Assembly: GCF_021764745.1 (NCBI RefSeq)
Contig: NZ_JAETXX010000001.1
Location: forward strand, 682,001-746,000
From: Joostella atrarenae
GTDB taxonomy: Bacteria; Bacteroidota; Bacteroidia; Flavobacteriales; Flavobacteriaceae
Reading direction: 5' to 3'
Length of the DNA stretch: 64,000 bases
Part shown: piece by piece, positions 47,103 through 54,817 of the stretch
Layout of the letters: the number at the start of each line of letters is the position of its first letter
Numbering within the stretch: the first letter of the stretch is position 1
Translations under genes and position numbers: made by a program
Notes under the pieces: generated by a model
Database searches by the model: none
What the model was told of the DNA's origin: nothing
Seen by the model: only the letters and a program-made list of their open reading frames with translations

Positions 47103-48380
47103 ATGAATTTATGGTTTTTTACAGATGATAGAGATGAGATAACAAAACTTCGATTCTTAGCACTTTGCGTGATTATCTCTGCTTTTTTGTTTGAAACATA
47201 TGATGAGTTAGTGCTCAATGGTAATTTTATAAAAGGTTGTGTAGATGTACTTATAACTCTTATTATATTATCTTTATTAGTGTTAAATAGATTTAAGGTC
47301 ATTTCATTAAAGGTGATTTTAACTATCGTAATGTATTGTATTCTTCTTTTTATAACTTTTTCAGCACCAATTGAAGGGATACATAATTTAGATTCAGCAA
47401 TTACATTTTTTGTAAAGGGGGAGCTTATTTTTGTTTTATTAATTGTTGGGATGGGGGTTTTAGTTGATCCTCTTCATATAAACTATTGCATAGCATTAAA
47501 TCTAATTTTTGCAACTTTCTTGGTTTATTACTTGTTTACAATCGATTTACATATTCCAACTCCTAAATTATTTTATTATCTAGTAATTTCATCTGGGTCT
47601 GGTATTATAGCAAAGCGTTTGTATGTCCATCTATTAAGTCTTCAGTCTAAATTAAGAGAAGCTAATAATGATATTACTCTTAAGAACGAAAGACTTATTC
47701 GGGTAAATAAATCTAACCAAGAGTTGTTTGTAATATTGGGTCATGATATGAAAACACCTTTTGTTCATATTAGGATGTTGTTAGATTTAATGGAACGTGC
47801 AGATTTTTCTAAAGATAAGTTTGATAAGTATAAAGCAATGCTTGATGAAGCTACTGCTAATGGAAGTAAATTACTTAGAAATTTATTGGAGTGGGTGCAT
47901 AACAATTCTTTAGAGCATGAAATGAAAATCACACCTTTCCCACTTCATTCTTTAGTTGAAGAAGAGATAGAAATGTTTAAAAATACATATATATCTAAAG
48001 AGGTCAAGATTGTTAATTTAATCCCTAAAGATCTTATTATAAATGCGGATATGAATATGTCTTCAGTAATTATTAGAAACTTACTTTCTAATGCTATAAA
48101 ATATTCTCATGTAAATTCTAAGATTGAAATTGGAGTAAGAGATATTAATAAGAGCCATCATATTTATGTAAAAGATTTTGGAGTAGGTGTTAGTGAAGCT
48201 GTAGTAGAGAAAATTAAGAAAAATATAAAAGTGTCTTCCATGCCAGGAACTATGAATGAGCAGGGTACGGGCTTAGGAATAAATATTTGTAAAAAATTAG
48301 CGTATCATCATGGTGGTGATATTACTGTTGCTGCAGATGATGAGGTAGGTAGTACATTTATTTTTATTCTCCCTCAATAA
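47103..48380 (+). CDS. Membrane sensor histidine kinase, orphan
   Basis: The 425-residue kinase has about six N-terminal membrane helices in the first 180 residues (starting near residue 14), a linker coiled coil near 185-205, a HisKA phosphoacceptor with His 214 in ILGHDMKTPFVH, and a HATPase_c domain with N-box NLLSNAIKYSH near residue 336, DFGVGVS and GTGLGINICKKLAYHHGG near the end. The helices replace a classical periplasmic sensor, so the signal may be a membrane property. No response regulator is adjacent. The 184 nt before it, 46919-47102, show no gene. Confidence 0.92.
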   Translation: MNLWFFTDDRDEITKLRFLALCVIISAFLFETYDELVLNGNFIKGCVDVLITLIILSLLVLNRFKVISLKVILTIVMYCILLFITFSAPIEGIHNLDSAITFFVKGELIFVLLIVGMGVLVDPLHINYCIALNLIFATFLVYYLFTIDLHIPTPKLFYYLVISSGSGIIAKRLYVHLLSLQSKLREANNDITLKNERLIRVNKSNQELFVILGHDMKTPFVHIRMLLDLMERADFSKDKFDKYKAMLDEATANGSKLLRNLLEWVHNNSLEHEMKITPFPLHSLVEEEIEMFKNTYISKEVKIVNLIPKDLIINADMNMSSVIIRNLLSNAIKYSHVNSKIEIGVRDINKSHHIYVKDFGVGVSEAVVEKIKKNIKVSSMPGTMNEQGTGLGINICKKLAYHHGGDITVAADDEVGSTFIFILPQ

Positions 48381-48546
48381 AACAAATATTTTTTTCTACT
48401 TGAATTATTTCTTCACTATATTTAACATATATTAGTTCCTTTCCCCTTTTTTTAGATTTCCCCCACACATATTTATAAGTTAATAATGAGCGTTTTAAGC
48501 GCTTTTTAAGTTCTTTGATAGATTTAACAAACTATTAACGACTGTT

Positions 48547-48568
48547 TAGTTCGGTATTATCCGAACTA
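48547..48568. promoter_or_regulatory. Palindromic operator upstream of the efflux regulator gene
   Basis: TAGTTCGG (48547-48554) and CCGAACTA (48561-48568) are perfect inverted copies with a 6-nt spacer. It lies in the space between the expected -33 and -7 boxes of the regulator gene, the place expected for autorepression by a dimeric MarR-type protein. Confidence 0.55.
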
Positions 48569-48572
48569 GAGT

Positions 48573-48580
48573 TAATTTTG
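48573..48580 (+). promoter_or_regulatory. -7 promoter element of the regulator-efflux operon
   Basis: TAATTTTG fits TAnnTTTG exactly and sits 18 nt before ATG 48599, immediately after the palindrome. It also overlaps a TTG that would otherwise look like an upstream start codon, which rules that start out. Confidence 0.5.
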
Positions 48581-48598
48581 CGCTCTTATTTAGGCACT

Positions 48599-49117
48599 AT
48601 GTTAATAGATGAAAAATTAAATAAAGTAAAGGCAGAGCTTATTGAAGAGATGGGAGTGTATTTTGAGTGTCAAGATATATTATCTCCATTGTCTTCAAGG
48701 ATTTTTGCTTATTTAGCTTTAGCGGGAGATGATGGCGTTACCTTCGATGAAATTTTAGAAGAGTTAAAGATTAGCAAGAGCTCAGCTTCTACTAATCTTC
48801 AGCTTTTACAGTCTATGGGTAGAGTTGGATATTACACTAAGCCTGGAGATCGTAAGAGATATTTTAAAGTTTCGTTTGATAATATGGTGAACCGTTTAGA
48901 TGATAAAATTAATTCTTGGAAAAAAGAAAAGGAGTTACATATCAAAGTGCTCGATTATCGTCATAAGGTTTTGTTAGCAAACGATAAAATCGACCGTGAA
49001 ATAGAAAATAGAAAAGATTTATCATATAACAAACACTATATAGAGTTTGTGGATAGGATGATCGAAAATTTGCATAAATTAAAAAGTAATTTAATAACTG
49101 TCAACCAAGATAAATAA
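48599..49117 (+). CDS. GbsR/MarR-type winged-helix transcriptional regulator
   Basis: The 172-residue protein begins MLIDEKLNKVKAELIEEMGV and contains a winged helix-turn-helix at about residues 30-95, with DDGVTFDEILEELKISKSSA as the recognition region and VGYYTKPGDRKRYFKV as the wing, followed by a long C-terminal coiled-coil for dimerisation. It belongs to the GbsR/MarR group of repressors. It overlaps the adaptor gene by one base and so heads the efflux operon; local repression through the palindrome at 48547-48568 is the natural reading. The true start is ATG 48599, as the upstream TTG lies in the promoter. Confidence 0.88.
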   Translation: MLIDEKLNKVKAELIEEMGVYFECQDILSPLSSRIFAYLALAGDDGVTFDEILEELKISKSSASTNLQLLQSMGRVGYYTKPGDRKRYFKVSFDNMVNRLDDKINSWKKEKELHIKVLDYRHKVLLANDKIDREIENRKDLSYNKHYIEFVDRMIENLHKLKSNLITVNQDK

Positions 49118-50247
49118 TGGGTTCAAAATTATATTCAAGAATTATATTAATGGGACTTTCAGTAGTCTTATTAAGTTGTGGAGGTAAGAAAGAGCAGGAT
49201 CAAAGTCAAGCGCAAAAGGCCATGCCATTTCCTACTGTTAAAGTAGAAAGTAAAGAAATTACAGGTTATAAGACCTACCCAACAAGCATAGAGGGGGTTC
49301 TTAATAGTGATGTGCGTGCTAAAGTTTCTGGTTACATCAAAGAGGTTTTAGTAGATGAAGGAGAGAAAGTGAGTAAGGGACAGACTTTGTTTAGACTAGA
49401 AACAGAATCTTTAAGTCAAGACGCACAAGCTGCACAGGCTAGCGTTAATGTGGCGCAGGTTAATGTAGATAAGTTGAAGCCACTTGTAGAGAAAGGGATC
49501 ATCAGTAAAGTGCAATTGGAAACAGCAAAAGCAAACTTAGAGCAAGCAAAAAGTAATTATAGTAGTATTAATGCTAGTATTGGTTATGCAACTGTTAAAA
49601 GTTCTGTGGATGGATATGTAGGTGCTATTCCTTTTAGACAAGGTACTCTTGTGAGTCCAAACGATCAAACACCATTAACAACGGTTTCAGATATTAAGCA
49701 GGTTTATGCTTACTTTTCTATGAATGAGGAGGATTACATTGATTACATTCAGAACACAAAAGGAGATACTCGTCAAGAAAAACTAGATAATTTCCCTGAG
49801 ATAGATCTTGTTTTAGCAAATGGAGCTTTATATCCACATAAAGGAAAAATTAAAACTGTAACAGGGCAAATCAATCAGAATACTGGTACGGTTAGTTTTA
49901 GAGCGACTTTTGATAATCCAAACTCATTGCTAACCAATGGGAATAGTGGGACAATAAAAATTCCAACTATATATAAAGATCAACCTGTTATTTCTCAAGA
50001 ATCTACATTTGAACAACAAGGTCAAGTGTTAGTTTATCATGTGAATGATGAAAATAAAGTTTCATCAGAAGTAATAAAAATTAGTGATGAGATAGACAAT
50101 CTATATGTTGTGAAATCTGGAGTGAAAGTAGGAGATGTGATTGTAGCTAAGGGAGTAGGGAAACTAAGAGAAGGGATGCTTATTGCTCCCCAAGAAGTTT
50201 CTTACGACAGTATAGTCAAGCCAATAAAAACTTTATTTAGAAACTAG
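49117..50247 (+). CDS. RND efflux periplasmic adaptor (membrane fusion lipoprotein)
   Basis: The 376-residue protein has a lipoprotein signal ending LLSC (Cys 21) and the adaptor domain order: a barrel-sandwich start with VRAKVSGYIKEVLVDEGEKV near residue 68, the alpha-hairpin at about 105-155, then VKSSVDGYVGAIPFRQGTLV and the beta-barrel and membrane-proximal domains. This is the AcrA/MexA type. It starts on the last base of the regulator's stop codon. The substrates pumped cannot be told from sequence. Confidence 0.94.
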   Translation: MGSKLYSRIILMGLSVVLLSCGGKKEQDQSQAQKAMPFPTVKVESKEITGYKTYPTSIEGVLNSDVRAKVSGYIKEVLVDEGEKVSKGQTLFRLETESLSQDAQAAQASVNVAQVNVDKLKPLVEKGIISKVQLETAKANLEQAKSNYSSINASIGYATVKSSVDGYVGAIPFRQGTLVSPNDQTPLTTVSDIKQVYAYFSMNEEDYIDYIQNTKGDTRQEKLDNFPEIDLVLANGALYPHKGKIKTVTGQINQNTGTVSFRATFDNPNSLLTNGNSGTIKIPTIYKDQPVISQESTFEQQGQVLVYHVNDENKVSSEVIKISDEIDNLYVVKSGVKVGDVIVAKGVGKLREGMLIAPQEVSYDSIVKPIKTLFRN

Positions 50248-50265: not shown

Positions 50266-53200
50266 ATGCTAAAGACATTTATTGAGAGACCTGTATTGTC
50301 TACAGTAATCTCTATTATATTAGTAATATTAGGGGTTTTAGGGGTTATTTCACTCCCTATAGAACAGTATCCTGATATTGCTCCAGCTACGGTTCAAGTA
50401 AATGCTACTTATCCTGGAGCGAGTGCAGAAACAATATTAGAGAGTGTTATTGTTCCGATTGAGGAGCAAATAAACGGAGTGGAAGGGATGACTTATATCA
50501 CTTCAACAGCTACAAACTCTGGAACAGCTAATATTACTGTTTATTTTGATGAAGATACAGATCCAGATATTGCCGCTGTAAACGTTCAGAATAGAGTTTC
50601 GAGAGCAAACTCTTTATTACCACAAGAGGTGGTTCAAACAGGGGTAATTACACAAAAGCAGCAAACAAGTTCGTTGATGTTTATATCATTCTATTCAACG
50701 AATAAAGATTACGATGCTACTTATTTACAGAATTACCTTAAGATTAACGTAATTCCAGAATTACAGCGTGTTAAAGGTGTTGGAGACGTTAATGTGTTTT
50801 CGCAGCAGGATTATGCAATGCGTCTTTGGTTAAAGCCAGAGAAGCTAGCTGCTTATAACCTAATTCCAACAGATGTTGTTGCAGCATTGACCGAACAAAG
50901 TTTGGAGGCTGCTGCCGGATCTTTAGGGGAAAATAATGGAGAGGCATTTTCATATGTTATTAAATATAGTGGACGTTTTAAGACCGAAACTCAATATGAG
51001 GATATTATAATAAAAGCGTTAGGCGATGGTCAGTATTTAAGACTTAAGGATGTAGCTGATGTAGAATTAAATGCGCAATCTTATGCTGCAAATTCTGTTA
51101 CAAAAGGTTTTCCAAGTATAAACATGGCAATTTATCAGACTAAAGGTTCTAATGCACAAGAGATTATAGAAACTATTCAAGGGAAATTAGATGATCTAAA
51201 ACCTACTTTTCCAAAAGGAGTTGAGCTATTTATTCCATATAATACGAATGACTTCTTAACAGCGTCTATTGAAAAAGTAGTACATACGCTAGTAGAAGCC
51301 TTTATATTGGTTTTTATTGTTGTATTTATCTTCTTACAAGATTTCCGTTCAACGCTTATTCCTGCAATTGCAGTACCAGTGGCGATTATTGGAACGTTCT
51401 TTTTCCTGAATGTTTTCGGATATTCTATAAACCTATTAACGTTATTTGCATTAGTACTGGCAATTGGTATTGTTGTCGATGATGCCATTGTGGTCGTCGA
51501 GGCCGTCCATGCAAAAATTGAGGAAGGAAATTCTGAGTCCGCGAAATCTGCAACCATCGATGCGATGCATGAAATTTCTGGAGCTATTATTTCGATTACA
51601 TTAGTAATGGCGGCCGTATTTATTCCAGTAACCTTTATTCAAGGTCCTACAGGGGTATTTTATGAGCAATTCGGTATTACACTTATTGTGGCGATCATGA
51701 TTTCTGCAGTAAATGCATTGACCTTGAGTCCTGCATTATGTGCATTATTGCTAAAAACACATACAGAGGAAGAAAAGAAGAACACTTCTTTCTTACAACG
51801 ATTTTATGATGGTTTTAATAGAGGATTTAACGCTATAACTCAGCGTTATGGTAAATCCCTAGGGTTTTTATATAAGCATAAATGGATTACAGGAGTTGCT
51901 TTACTGGCGTCTATAGCGGGTATTGTATGGGTTTCTTCAACAACACCTACAGGTTTTGTGCCTAGTGAAGACCGTGGAATTATTTTTGCCAATGTTGAAT
52001 TGCCTCCAGGTTCTTCAATTGATAGAACAGGAGAAGTTAATAGATTATTATATGAAAAAACCAAAGATCTTCCTGGAGTAGAAGGAGTATCTGTAATTAG
52101 TGGTTTTAGTTTACTAGGAGGTAGAGGTAGTAACTACGGATTAGGATTTATAAAATTAGATGATTGGGAGAAACGTGGTGAAGATTCTCTTTCTGTAGAT
52201 GCTCTTACTAAAAAACTCTTCGGTTTGGCGGCTTCTATTCCTGAAGCAAATATTGTCTTCTTTGCTCCGCCGAGTATACCTGGATTTGGAGTTTCCTCTG
52301 GGTTTGAGGTTAACCTTTTAGATAAATCAGGAGGTGCTTTTACAGAGCTGGATCAAACTAATCGTGATTTTATGACTGCCTTAATGCAGCATCCTGAAAT
52401 ACAATATGGACAATCGTCATTCAATACAAGATATCCACAGTACGAAATGGAAATCAACGTTCCATTGGCTAAAGAAAAAGGAGTTCCTATAAACTCTATA
52501 TTTTCAACATTACAGGGGTATATAGGAGGTATTTATGCATCCGATTTCTCAAGATTTGGAAAGCAGTATCGTGTATACTTACAAACACTTCCTGAGAATA
52601 GAGATAATAAAGATGCTCTTAATGGTCTTTATGTTAGGACAGGAGAAGGAGAAATGGCTCCAATTACACAGTTTGTAAAACTGAAGAGAGTATATGGACC
52701 GCAATCTGTAACAAGATTTAATCTTTTTAACTCATCAAAAGTAACTGGAGCAACAAATCCAGGATTTAGTACAGGGGATGCTATTGCTGTTGTAGAAGCA
52801 GAAGCTGCTAAGCTACCAGCAAATTATGATATTGCTTACTCTGGATTAACAAGAGAAGAGGTGAGTGCCGGAAGTCAGACGATTTTAATATTTATTTTAA
52901 GTATTGTCTTTGTATACTTCTTATTAGCAGCACAATATGAGAGTTATTTATTACCGTTCTCTGTTATTTTCTCTCTTCCATTAGGGGTTTTTGGAGCTTA
53001 CTTTACTACGAAAGTGGTAGGATTGGAAAACAATATATATTTCCAGATTGCATTAATAATGTTAATTGGATTACTGGCGAAGAATGCAATTCTTATTGTG
53101 GAGTTTGCGCTCCAGAGACGTAAAAATGGTGAAAGCTTATCTGAAGCAGCTATACATGGAGCAAAAGCGAGACTTCGACCTATTTTAATGACTTCATTTG

Positions 53201-53415
53201 CATTTATCTTAGGATTGATGCCGTTAGCATTAGCAGGTGGTGTAGGAGCAGCAGGAAATAGATCAATTGGTACAGGAGCTGTTGGTGGAATGTTAATAGG
53301 TACCATTTTAGGAGTATTTTTTATTCCGATATTGTTTGTAATCTTTCAATGGTTACAAGAACGTATTTCTGGAGCACCAAAAGTAGCAGTAGAACCTCAT
53401 GATAACTCAAATTAA
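50266..53415 (+). CDS. RND efflux pump, HAE1 (AcrB/MexB) family
   Basis: The 1049-residue inner-membrane proton antiporter has 12 helices and the HAE1 hallmarks: the start MLKTFIERPVLSTVISIILV, the TM4 proton-relay Asp pair in GIVVDDAIVVVEAVHAKIEE near residue 405, the pore-domain sequence GVEGMTYITSTATNSGTANI, and the late motif ILMTSFAFILGLMPLALAGG near residue 970. Length and order equal those of AcrB. It lies 18 nt after the adaptor gene and directly before the outer-membrane channel gene. It exports hydrophobic or amphiphilic compounds; the class is multidrug but the natural substrate is open. Confidence 0.96.
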   Translation: MLKTFIERPVLSTVISIILVILGVLGVISLPIEQYPDIAPATVQVNATYPGASAETILESVIVPIEEQINGVEGMTYITSTATNSGTANITVYFDEDTDPDIAAVNVQNRVSRANSLLPQEVVQTGVITQKQQTSSLMFISFYSTNKDYDATYLQNYLKINVIPELQRVKGVGDVNVFSQQDYAMRLWLKPEKLAAYNLIPTDVVAALTEQSLEAAAGSLGENNGEAFSYVIKYSGRFKTETQYEDIIIKALGDGQYLRLKDVADVELNAQSYAANSVTKGFPSINMAIYQTKGSNAQEIIETIQGKLDDLKPTFPKGVELFIPYNTNDFLTASIEKVVHTLVEAFILVFIVVFIFLQDFRSTLIPAIAVPVAIIGTFFFLNVFGYSINLLTLFALVLAIGIVVDDAIVVVEAVHAKIEEGNSESAKSATIDAMHEISGAIISITLVMAAVFIPVTFIQGPTGVFYEQFGITLIVAIMISAVNALTLSPALCALLLKTHTEEEKKNTSFLQRFYDGFNRGFNAITQRYGKSLGFLYKHKWITGVALLASIAGIVWVSSTTPTGFVPSEDRGIIFANVELPPGSSIDRTGEVNRLLYEKTKDLPGVEGVSVISGFSLLGGRGSNYGLGFIKLDDWEKRGEDSLSVDALTKKLFGLAASIPEANIVFFAPPSIPGFGVSSGFEVNLLDKSGGAFTELDQTNRDFMTALMQHPEIQYGQSSFNTRYPQYEMEINVPLAKEKGVPINSIFSTLQGYIGGIYASDFSRFGKQYRVYLQTLPENRDNKDALNGLYVRTGEGEMAPITQFVKLKRVYGPQSVTRFNLFNSSKVTGATNPGFSTGDAIAVVEAEAAKLPANYDIAYSGLTREEVSAGSQTILIFILSIVFVYFLLAAQYESYLLPFSVIFSLPLGVFGAYFTTKVVGLENNIYFQIALIMLIGLLAKNAILIVEFALQRRKNGESLSEAAIHGAKARLRPILMTSFAFILGLMPLALAGGVGAAGNRSIGTGAVGGMLIGTILGVFFIPILFVIFQWLQERISGAPKVAVEPHDNSN

Positions 53416-53416
53416 G

Positions 53417-54817
53417 ATGAAGAATTTAAAGAAATATAGAATCTTATTAGGTCTTAGTATTCCATTGCTTTTGCAGTCTTGCTTTGTAGCTAAGAATTAC
53501 GAAAGGCCTGAAGTAGAGACCGAAAACTTATATAGAACTGATAATATTTCTCAGGATAGCACTTCTTTAGGAATGGTTTCTTGGCGTGAATTGTTTCAAG
53601 ATCCAATTCTGGAGAAACATATAGAAACTGCATTAGAGAACAATCTAGATATTAGAATGGCAGTTCAGCAAATTGTTGCTTCGGAGGCTTATTTAAAGCA
53701 AGGAAAGGCTGGTAATTATCCAACACTTGGTGTTAATGGGACGGTTACGCGTCAGCAAAACTCAGAGAATAGTCAGTTTGGTAGTATTTTTAGTGAGCCA
53801 TATGAGCAGTACGATTTGACTGCAAATATTTCTTGGGAAGCAGATATCTGGGGGAAAATACGAAGTAACAAAAGAGCTTTTGAAGCTACTTATTTACAAA
53901 CCTTAGAAGCGCATAAAGCTGTTAAAACAGAATTAATTGCTGCTATAGCTTCTACTTACTATCAATTACTTTCTTTGGATGAACAATTAGAAATCACCAA
54001 TGAAACGATTGAAAATAGAAAAGGAAGTTTAGAGACTACAAAAGCTTTAAAGGAAGCAGGATTAGTTACTGAGGTAGGAGTTAAGCAAACGGAAGCGCAA
54101 TTATATACTGCGCAGGCTATAAAGATTGATCTTGAGAACAATATAAAATTATTGGAGAACTCTTTTTCTATTCTTTTAGCTGAGCCACCGCATGCTATTG
54201 AAAGAGGAGTTTTAGATGCCCAAAAAATTGATTCTGAATTAACAACAGGGGTGCCATATTTGCTATTGCAAAACAGACCAGATGTAGCTTCAGCGGAATA
54301 TGGATTGGTAAATGCTTTTGAGCTTACTAATGTCGCTAGAAGTAGCTTTTATCCCTCTATTACTTTAGGTGCTAGCGTTGGTTTTCAGAGTTTAAACTTT
54401 GATAATTGGATAGATGCGAGTTCTATTTTTAATTCTTTGGTAGCTGGTTTAGCACAACCAATTTTGAATGGAAGAAAAATACGTACACAATTTGAAGTTT
54501 CTAAAGCTCAACAAGAGCAAGCACTTTTAAATTATAAGAAAACGCTGCTGGTAGCTGGAAGAGAGGTGTCTGATGCATTGTATGATTATGATGCCGCTAC
54601 AGGGAAAATTGAAGTCAGACAAAAAGAATATGAAGCTTATAATTTAGCTACACAATATTCAGAAGAGCTGTTAAATCAAGGTTTAGTTAACTACCTTGAG
54701 GTGCTTACAGCTAGAGAGAATTCATTAAATTCTGAATTATTATTGGTTCAGAATAAGTATTACCGTTTAAACTCTATTGTCACTCTATATCAAGCCTTAG
54801 GAGGCGGTTGGCAATAA
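53417..54817 (+). CDS. Outer-membrane efflux channel, NodT/OprM-type lipoprotein
   Basis: The 466-residue product starts MKNLKKYRILLGLSIPLLLQ, with the lipobox LQSC, and contains the OMF repeats: EKHIETALENNLDIRMAVQQ in the first half and NRPDVASAEYGLVNAFELTN and TQYSEELLNQGLVNYLEVLT in the second. It forms the trimeric TolC-like channel for the pump. ATG 53417 is preferred to the upstream frame start at 53399, since it follows the pump's stop codon by one base and the signal peptide then begins correctly. A terminator follows. Confidence 0.94.
   Translation: MKNLKKYRILLGLSIPLLLQSCFVAKNYERPEVETENLYRTDNISQDSTSLGMVSWRELFQDPILEKHIETALENNLDIRMAVQQIVASEAYLKQGKAGNYPTLGVNGTVTRQQNSENSQFGSIFSEPYEQYDLTANISWEADIWGKIRSNKRAFEATYLQTLEAHKAVKTELIAAIASTYYQLLSLDEQLEITNETIENRKGSLETTKALKEAGLVTEVGVKQTEAQLYTAQAIKIDLENNIKLLENSFSILLAEPPHAIERGVLDAQKIDSELTTGVPYLLLQNRPDVASAEYGLVNAFELTNVARSSFYPSITLGASVGFQSLNFDNWIDASSIFNSLVAGLAQPILNGRKIRTQFEVSKAQQEQALLNYKKTLLVAGREVSDALYDYDAATGKIEVRQKEYEAYNLATQYSEELLNQGLVNYLEVLTARENSLNSELLLVQNKYYRLNSIVTLYQALGGGWQ

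Follow-up and report, generated by a model that had tools for sequence, protein, structure and literature searches.

The window, by which we mean the whole stretch of 64,000 nucleotides analysed, contains the gene of a small winged-helix regulator, P0001, followed on the same strand by the genes of an efflux pump and preceded by a perfect inverted repeat. The features used below are, in window coordinates:

47103-48380, + strand: sensor kinase gene, upstream of the regulator and in the same direction (ATPase domain only in Pfam)
48488-48504, + strand: terminator-like hairpin, from a consensus scan only; may end the upstream kinase transcript
48524-48539, + strand: upstream element TTAAC-N6-TTAAC, at about -61 to -46 (sequence scan of the window and homologous upstream regions)
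48547-48568, no strand: perfect palindrome TAGTTCGG-TATTAT-CCGAACTA, candidate operator, reaching from about -38 to -17 relative to the inferred start
48573-48580, + strand: -7 box TAATTTTG (TAnnTTTG), at a conserved distance from the core in homologous promoters
48599-49117, + strand: GbsR/MarR-type winged-helix regulator P0001, 172 amino acids (profile and structure matches)
48776-48814, + strand: recognition helix, residues 60-72 (KSSASTNLQLLQS), in the predicted model; S61 and S62 track operator base 5
49117-50247, + strand: RND periplasmic adaptor (membrane fusion protein), TIGR01730 over cut-off; its ATG overlaps the regulator stop
50266-53415, + strand: RND permease of AcrB/HAE1 type, PF00873, TIGR00915 over cut-off
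53399-54817, + strand: outer-membrane efflux channel of NodT/TolC type, PF02321, TIGR01845 over cut-off

Adaptor, permease and channel genes thus lie together, each over its cut-off, as an HAE1-type RND tripartite operon; the sensor kinase (47103-48380) has FimS as its best NCBIfam match, under the cut-off. P0001 belongs to the MarR superfamily (PF12802, 29.3 bits against a cut-off of 27) and, by full-length similarity, to its GbsR subfamily: a profile of its homologues matches MJ223 (1ku9) with E 1e-9. Its predicted structure (9-sequence alignment, mean pLDDT 84.6), in which residues 60-72 form the recognition helix and 76-80 and 87-91 the strands of the wing, matches MJ223 in Foldseek with E 5e-8 over 170 alignment columns at an rmsd of 7.6, and by profile and Foldseek alike the top matches are MJ223 and 4nb5, at Foldseek rmsd values of 7 to 8. 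The two leaders in VIA-align are 5jbr (Z 13.3, rmsd 6.1, 149 aligned) and 1ku9 (Z 12.5, rmsd 7.5, 146 aligned); since the 50 listed matches all fall within Z 10.0 to 13.3 and include many other winged-helix proteins, this ranking says little. The CudC profile spans residues 5-158 (E 2e-8), and P0001 falls short of the GbsR/CudC choline equivalog NF047500, with 34.3 bits against a cut-off of 218 (33.3 in the genome search). These profile matches agree with a sequence-only reading of the locus, which had seen a MarR/GbsR-type regulator at the head of an RND efflux operon. MexR of Pseudomonas is a MarR-family repressor of an RND pump, and so a winged-helix repressor of such a pump as P0001 is proposed to be, but of a different subfamily; its structure, 4zzl, is among the VIA-align matches listed, whereas the best full-length fold matches of P0001 are MJ223 (the GbsR modelling template), 4nb5 and 5jbr.

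The palindrome and its promoter

The palindrome consists of TAGTTCGG (48547-48554), the spacer TATTAT (48555-48560) and CCGAACTA (48561-48568), and is separated by GAGT from the TAATTTTG box; the regulator ATG is at 48599. The exact 8-bp arms, the N6 spacer and an end four bases ahead of a -7 box had all been read correctly from the sequence. The box itself is present, its description as a plain consensus -7 element being better replaced by the Bacteroidota form, TAnnTTTG. This flavobacterial sigma-A box is placed at -12 to -5 (PMC9723704), a convention that puts the transcription start near 48585, leaves a leader of about 14 nt and sets the palindrome at about -38 to -17.

The arms are exact in the window, but what relatives keep of them is an 18-bp core, GTTCGG-N6-CCGAAC (48549-48566); the outer TA/TA pair is not strictly conserved, being replaced, for example, by TTGGTTCGG...CCGAACCAA at three homologous loci (L007, L010, L011). 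A window scan allowing up to 3 mismatches returned one palindrome, the perfect one, against a shuffled mean of 0.08. The 3.99-Mb genome holds the perfect palindrome once, and two other places match it, each with 3 mismatches. A wider regulon in this genome found no support: with up to 3 mismatches allowed, the motif matched 32 times forward, counting the site in the window, and the reversed control 80 times. The proposal that the motif be used to search the genome for further sites of the regulator was therefore not borne out: with a single occurrence it is unsuited to finding a regulon, and the palindrome would be a switch acting locally at one site, not a motif spread through the genome.

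Among relatives the picture is one of strong conservation at this one place. In the genus, all seven genomes have the regulator, each with the exact GTTCGG-N6-CCGAAC. In the family, 112 of 397 genomes have this motif, and its reversed control turns up in 26 of 397. A regulator match follows 29-78 bp downstream at 54 of the 75 listed places; the remaining 21 are about what the reversed control predicts, and so give no sign of a wider regulon. The regulator profile itself matches 148 of the 397 genomes and has no match in 249, so most of the family is without the regulator. Family counts rest on these 75 listed motif places and on 150 listed regulator matches. In the upstream regions of the latter the core is exact in 86 and has one mismatch in 30, two in 18, three in nine and four in seven; 3000 shuffled upstreams, in which base composition only and not dinucleotides was kept, gave no exact core, none with one mismatch and three with two. 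Absence of the palindrome upstream of orthologous regulator-efflux operons had been named beforehand as the observation that would count against an operator; what was found is the reverse, an inverted repeat kept at the promoter of the regulator itself, in every genome of the genus and, exactly or with one mismatch, before most of the listed homologues.

Conservation reaches deeper still for GTTC-N10-GAAC, which is exact in 151 and within one mismatch in 19 of 177 upstreams, that is, the 150 from the family plus 27 from a class-wide sample (37 matches, 30 with loci, of which three duplicates, L214, L220 and L226, were removed); 3540 shuffles, again matched in base composition only, gave three exact and 85 one-mismatch occurrences. 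The spacing is as constant as the letters: GTTC and GAAC stand 10 apart in 131 of the 150 listed upstreams, each of the other spacings from 4 to 16 being seen twice at most. The site is not universal in the wider family, for the 26 homologues with SKGP or SKAS helices have no exact core and only three with one mismatch. The spacer has 43 different versions among the sites. In the direction of the gene it reads TTTGTT in 29 of the 86 exact sites (among L064-L093, for example) and, as the reverse complement AACAAA, in one; this asymmetry, unexpected for a plain dyad, may reflect overlap with a promoter element.

The core is also held in register with the promoter. Of the 134 homologous sites with up to 2 mismatches, 120 have TAnnTTTG starting 6 or 7 nt past the core, 6 nt being the distance in the window, and anchoring 91 promoters on the site gives the consensus TTTAACAAtt.TTTAAcTTCgtTTaGTTCGGTTt.ttCCGAACtAA...Ta.tTTTg. 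Further upstream lies a second conserved element, TTAAC-N6-TTAAC, present within 160 bp upstream in 70 of the 150 listed family homologues; its two TTAAC copies, near -61 and -50, are 11 bp, one helical turn, apart. The pair matched 54 times in 645 kb of fetched loci, and 45 of these matches fell at the regulator promoter; the reversed control matched eight times and five shuffles 2 to 8 times. As a common genomic motif it was rejected: a version with TT appended matched the genome once forward and once in reverse, the control giving 1 and 3, and these matches do not include the present site. The pair may be an UP-like element or the site of a second factor. It recurs about 500 bp past the regulator start, shortly before an ATG, at eight loci (L166, L169, L170, L172, L177, L179, L180, L181), at about 966-972 in gene orientation; these loci have asymmetric operators, mostly GTTTGT...CCGAAC, and the recurrence suggests an additional promoter in this subgroup.

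Covariation of operator base 5 with the recognition helix

Scoring the regulator alignment columns against operator base 5 placed residue 62 first among the scored columns at all four redundancy cut-offs (n = 170, 108, 42 and 29). In alignment-based counts, 268 of the 296 half-sites of regulators with Ser or Thr at 62 have G; the 40 half-sites of Ala62 regulators divide into 35 with T and 5 with A, and all 4 of Gly62 regulators have A. A rule based on this residue alone, with Ser/Thr62 specifying G5, was fixed beforehand and failed on 57 new loci from the phylum. For this phylum sample, 40 of the 112 listed rows that still lacked a locus were fetched, the weakest mostly being left out; a further 30 loci, 13 of them duplicates, brought the total to the 57, of which 25 have an exact core, three a core with one mismatch and 29 more mismatches. 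Held-out half-sites with Ser62 had 20 G, 4 T and 28 A among 52; Thr62 went with G in 2 of 2, and Ala62 with T in 2 of 2.

The Ser62 failure is due to residue 61, in helices of the SKGS type: these loci have an exact core in 10 of 13, with A on both sides in all ten, whereas SKSS loci have the core in 13 of 13, with G in 20 of 26 half-sites and always in the left half. A Gly61 term was added after the held-out failure, a locus with an SKGA helix (L236) having already pointed that way. The refined rule for base 5 reads Ser61 with Ser/Thr62 as G, Ser61 with Ala62 as T, and Gly61, Gly62 or Arg60 as A. It fits 358 of 394 half-sites in 197 operators, a set that includes the data that shaped the rule, and that was assembled without L240, duplicates, core-less upstreams (7 of the 177, 29 of the 57) and the three new one-mismatch sites, and with three TTTC-type sites added by hand. 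Three KSS operators with A on both sides (L173, L176, L194) are exceptions.

In further genomes the refined rule held for 21 of 26 half-sites, and none of the 13 sites departed from it in both halves. These came from 30 rows, nine of them places used before, leaving 21 new loci of which 13 were counted; at least 7 of the 13 come from two genera, L328-L331 sharing genus g396 with the earlier L229 and L317-L319 being of one genus. The eight uncounted loci have SRGN helices, one of them (L321) repeating L315; SRGN-helix homologues carry TTTCA-N8-TGAAA at 7 of 9 distinct loci.

Kinship was taken into account with a tree of 84 rows built without the helix columns. The Ala62 contrast yields six independent pairs, and on average 5.8 of them agree in direction with a left base T (sign test: median p 0.031, range 0.031-0.125). 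All four Ser/Thr pairs agree in direction, as do 2.9 of the three Gly/Arg pairs, numbers too small to reach significance; an earlier tree gave 2 and 1 pairs on well-supported branches. Since the distribution of helix classes largely mirrors the clades, few changes count as independent, and the covariation of base 5 with the helix, as judged from these alignments, is supported on a small number of them. That base 5 tracks residues 61-62 points to direct binding by the neighbouring regulator, and the way the operator letter changes with the helix may amount to a small recognition code.

A broader version of this idea we favour by a modest degree, taken as a whole: GbsR-type regulators across Bacteroidota, and perhaps beyond, would share one frame, NTTC-N10-GAAN, in which residues 60-62 set the variable bases, Ser61 with Ser/Thr62 giving G at base 5, Ser61 with Ala62 giving T, Gly at 61 or 62 giving A, and Arg instead of Lys at 60 going with T instead of G at base 1. 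If the code is true, the operator of an uncharacterised GbsR protein becomes predictable from the protein's sequence.

A probable autoregulatory switch and the alternatives

Very probably, the GbsR-type repressor whose gene begins 30 bp further downstream uses the palindrome as the operator through which it controls its own expression. The elements on which this reading draws are the anatomy of the site, its deep conservation at fixed spacing and position, its linkage to the operon and the covariation of base 5. The self-binding operator of a MarR/GbsR-type repressor that had been proposed for this place from the sequence thus gains support from conservation and from recognition-helix covariation, both at the level of sequence. 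For P0001 itself we infer that a dimer would bind with one recognition helix per GTTCG half-site, the half-site centres being 12 bp apart; lying at about -38 to -17, it would cover the -33 region and the spacer of the sigma-A promoter and exclude RNA polymerase, so that regulator, adaptor, RND pump and channel would be repressed together, until an inducer, plausibly a pump substrate, released the repressor.

The regulator might instead bind here but activate, or repress only weakly, mainly tuning its own level. The near-constant distance of homologous sites from the -7 box would suit such a role, but a site over the -33 and spacer region is in a position typical of occlusion; the operator of Bacillus subtilis OpcR, which overlaps the -35, is reported to hinder polymerase (PMC7396694), and CioR of Chromobacterium violaceum represses its own operon (PMC11837568). 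We consider activation or mere tuning unlikely. It is very unlikely that another transcription factor owns the site and controls the efflux operon while the encoded GbsR protein acts elsewhere: the second conserved element, TTAAC-N6-TTAAC, does allow that more than one factor may act at this promoter, but the palindrome is unique in the genome and adjoins the regulator gene, the 21 of 75 listed sites that have no regulator nearby roughly match the expectation from the reversed control, base 5 tracks the regulator's own helix in the further genomes and in independent tree pairs, and a GbsR-type protein, CydE, has been footprinted on a site of the same geometry (PMC6096048). That the palindrome acts as RNA, either as a leader structure or as a hairpin or terminator belonging to the kinase transcript from upstream, is hardly credible, for although the scan lists TTTAGTTCGG...CCGAACTAGA as terminator-like, with 10 pairs, the stem is followed by GTTAATTTTG and no plain T run, lies upstream of the inferred start and so outside the leader, has a spacer fixed at 6 (86 sites with N6, one with any other length from 3 to 11) and keeps all six pairs of its 6-bp dyad at no more than 90 of 134 sites, some being altered on one side, as in GTTCGG...CAGAAC; a separate terminator-like stem is available at 48488-48504, and base 5 follows a protein helix.

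The autoregulatory switch proposed here is a mechanism of known kind. One close counterpart is CydE of Alishewanella sp. WH16-1, a GbsR-type repressor of cytochrome bd genes whose DNase footprint protects TATTTCAGAAATTTCTGAAAGTTCA, a second, dissimilar site being footprinted too (PMC6096048). Inside the first footprint lies TTTCAG-AAATTT-CTGAAA, an 18-bp palindrome with the NTTC-N10-GAAN geometry seen here. Like P0001, CydE is a GbsR-type regulator encoded ahead of the genes it represses; unlike P0001 it controls a terminal oxidase rather than efflux, and its half-sites differ at bases 1 and 5. CioR is likewise a GbsR-type self-repressor, but of a cytochrome bd operon (PMC11837568). The Bacillus proteins GbsR, OpcR and OpuAR are GbsR-type repressors as well (PMC7396694, PMC6207618); GbsR and OpcR work through operators that are inverted repeats or A/T-rich, and OpcR blocks the -35 region, as P0001 is proposed to do. 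The three differ from P0001 in controlling osmoprotectant genes and in their A/T-rich operators with other spacers, and the operator of Bacillus GbsR lies downstream of the start, as a roadblock.

Efflux linkage and its limits

Of the 150 listed family homologues, 139 are followed on the same strand by adaptor and RND matches, and 133 of the 150 have the adaptor within 300 bp of the regulator end. These homologues form a large Bacteroidota GbsR group tied to efflux operons, to which a probable operator, a promoter geometry and a testable code can now be assigned, whereas a 2018 survey of GbsR proteins had 73 of 179 homologues without a function from gene neighbours, mainly in Euryarchaeota and Bacteroidetes (PMC6207618). 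The group offers a handle on how flavobacterial efflux pumps are switched on, and a ready system for the study of repressor-operator specificity.

Neither the operator strings nor an RND-linked GbsR operator from Bacteroidota came up in the open-licence papers searched, among the matches listed. The string matches listed, from 15 of 81 papers, concerned the 9-mer CCGAACTAA in every case; a Flavobacterium columnare match (PMC5395568) belongs to a table of CRISPR-like repeats and was set aside, and PMC10812688, which concerns a PadR regulator, is not relevant to a GbsR operator. Within the literature searched, an operator common to efflux-linked Bacteroidota GbsR proteins, with a testable recognition code, seems to be new.

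The efflux link reaches beyond the family, in another gene order: an outer-membrane efflux channel is the next gene in 10 of 10 class- or phylum-wide homologues without an adjoining adaptor, these loci having been picked by hand for that lack and, in most cases, for a next frame of about 450 codons. Not all relatives are linked to efflux, as is seen from the next genes of a second, deliberately mixed ten: LolA-like in three, without a match in one, DUF6653 in one, and in one each an alpha/beta hydrolase, a short-chain dehydrogenase, an MscS-type channel, a META-domain protein and a patatin-type protein. Outside the class, a branch with SKGS helices (within L274-L294) has GTTCA...TGAAC operators, and in the two of its loci that were scanned, L275 and L279, the next gene encodes a LolA-like lipoprotein-sorting protein. 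A LolA-like gene is likewise next at L300, where the helix is SRAS and the site TTTCAG...CTGAAA.
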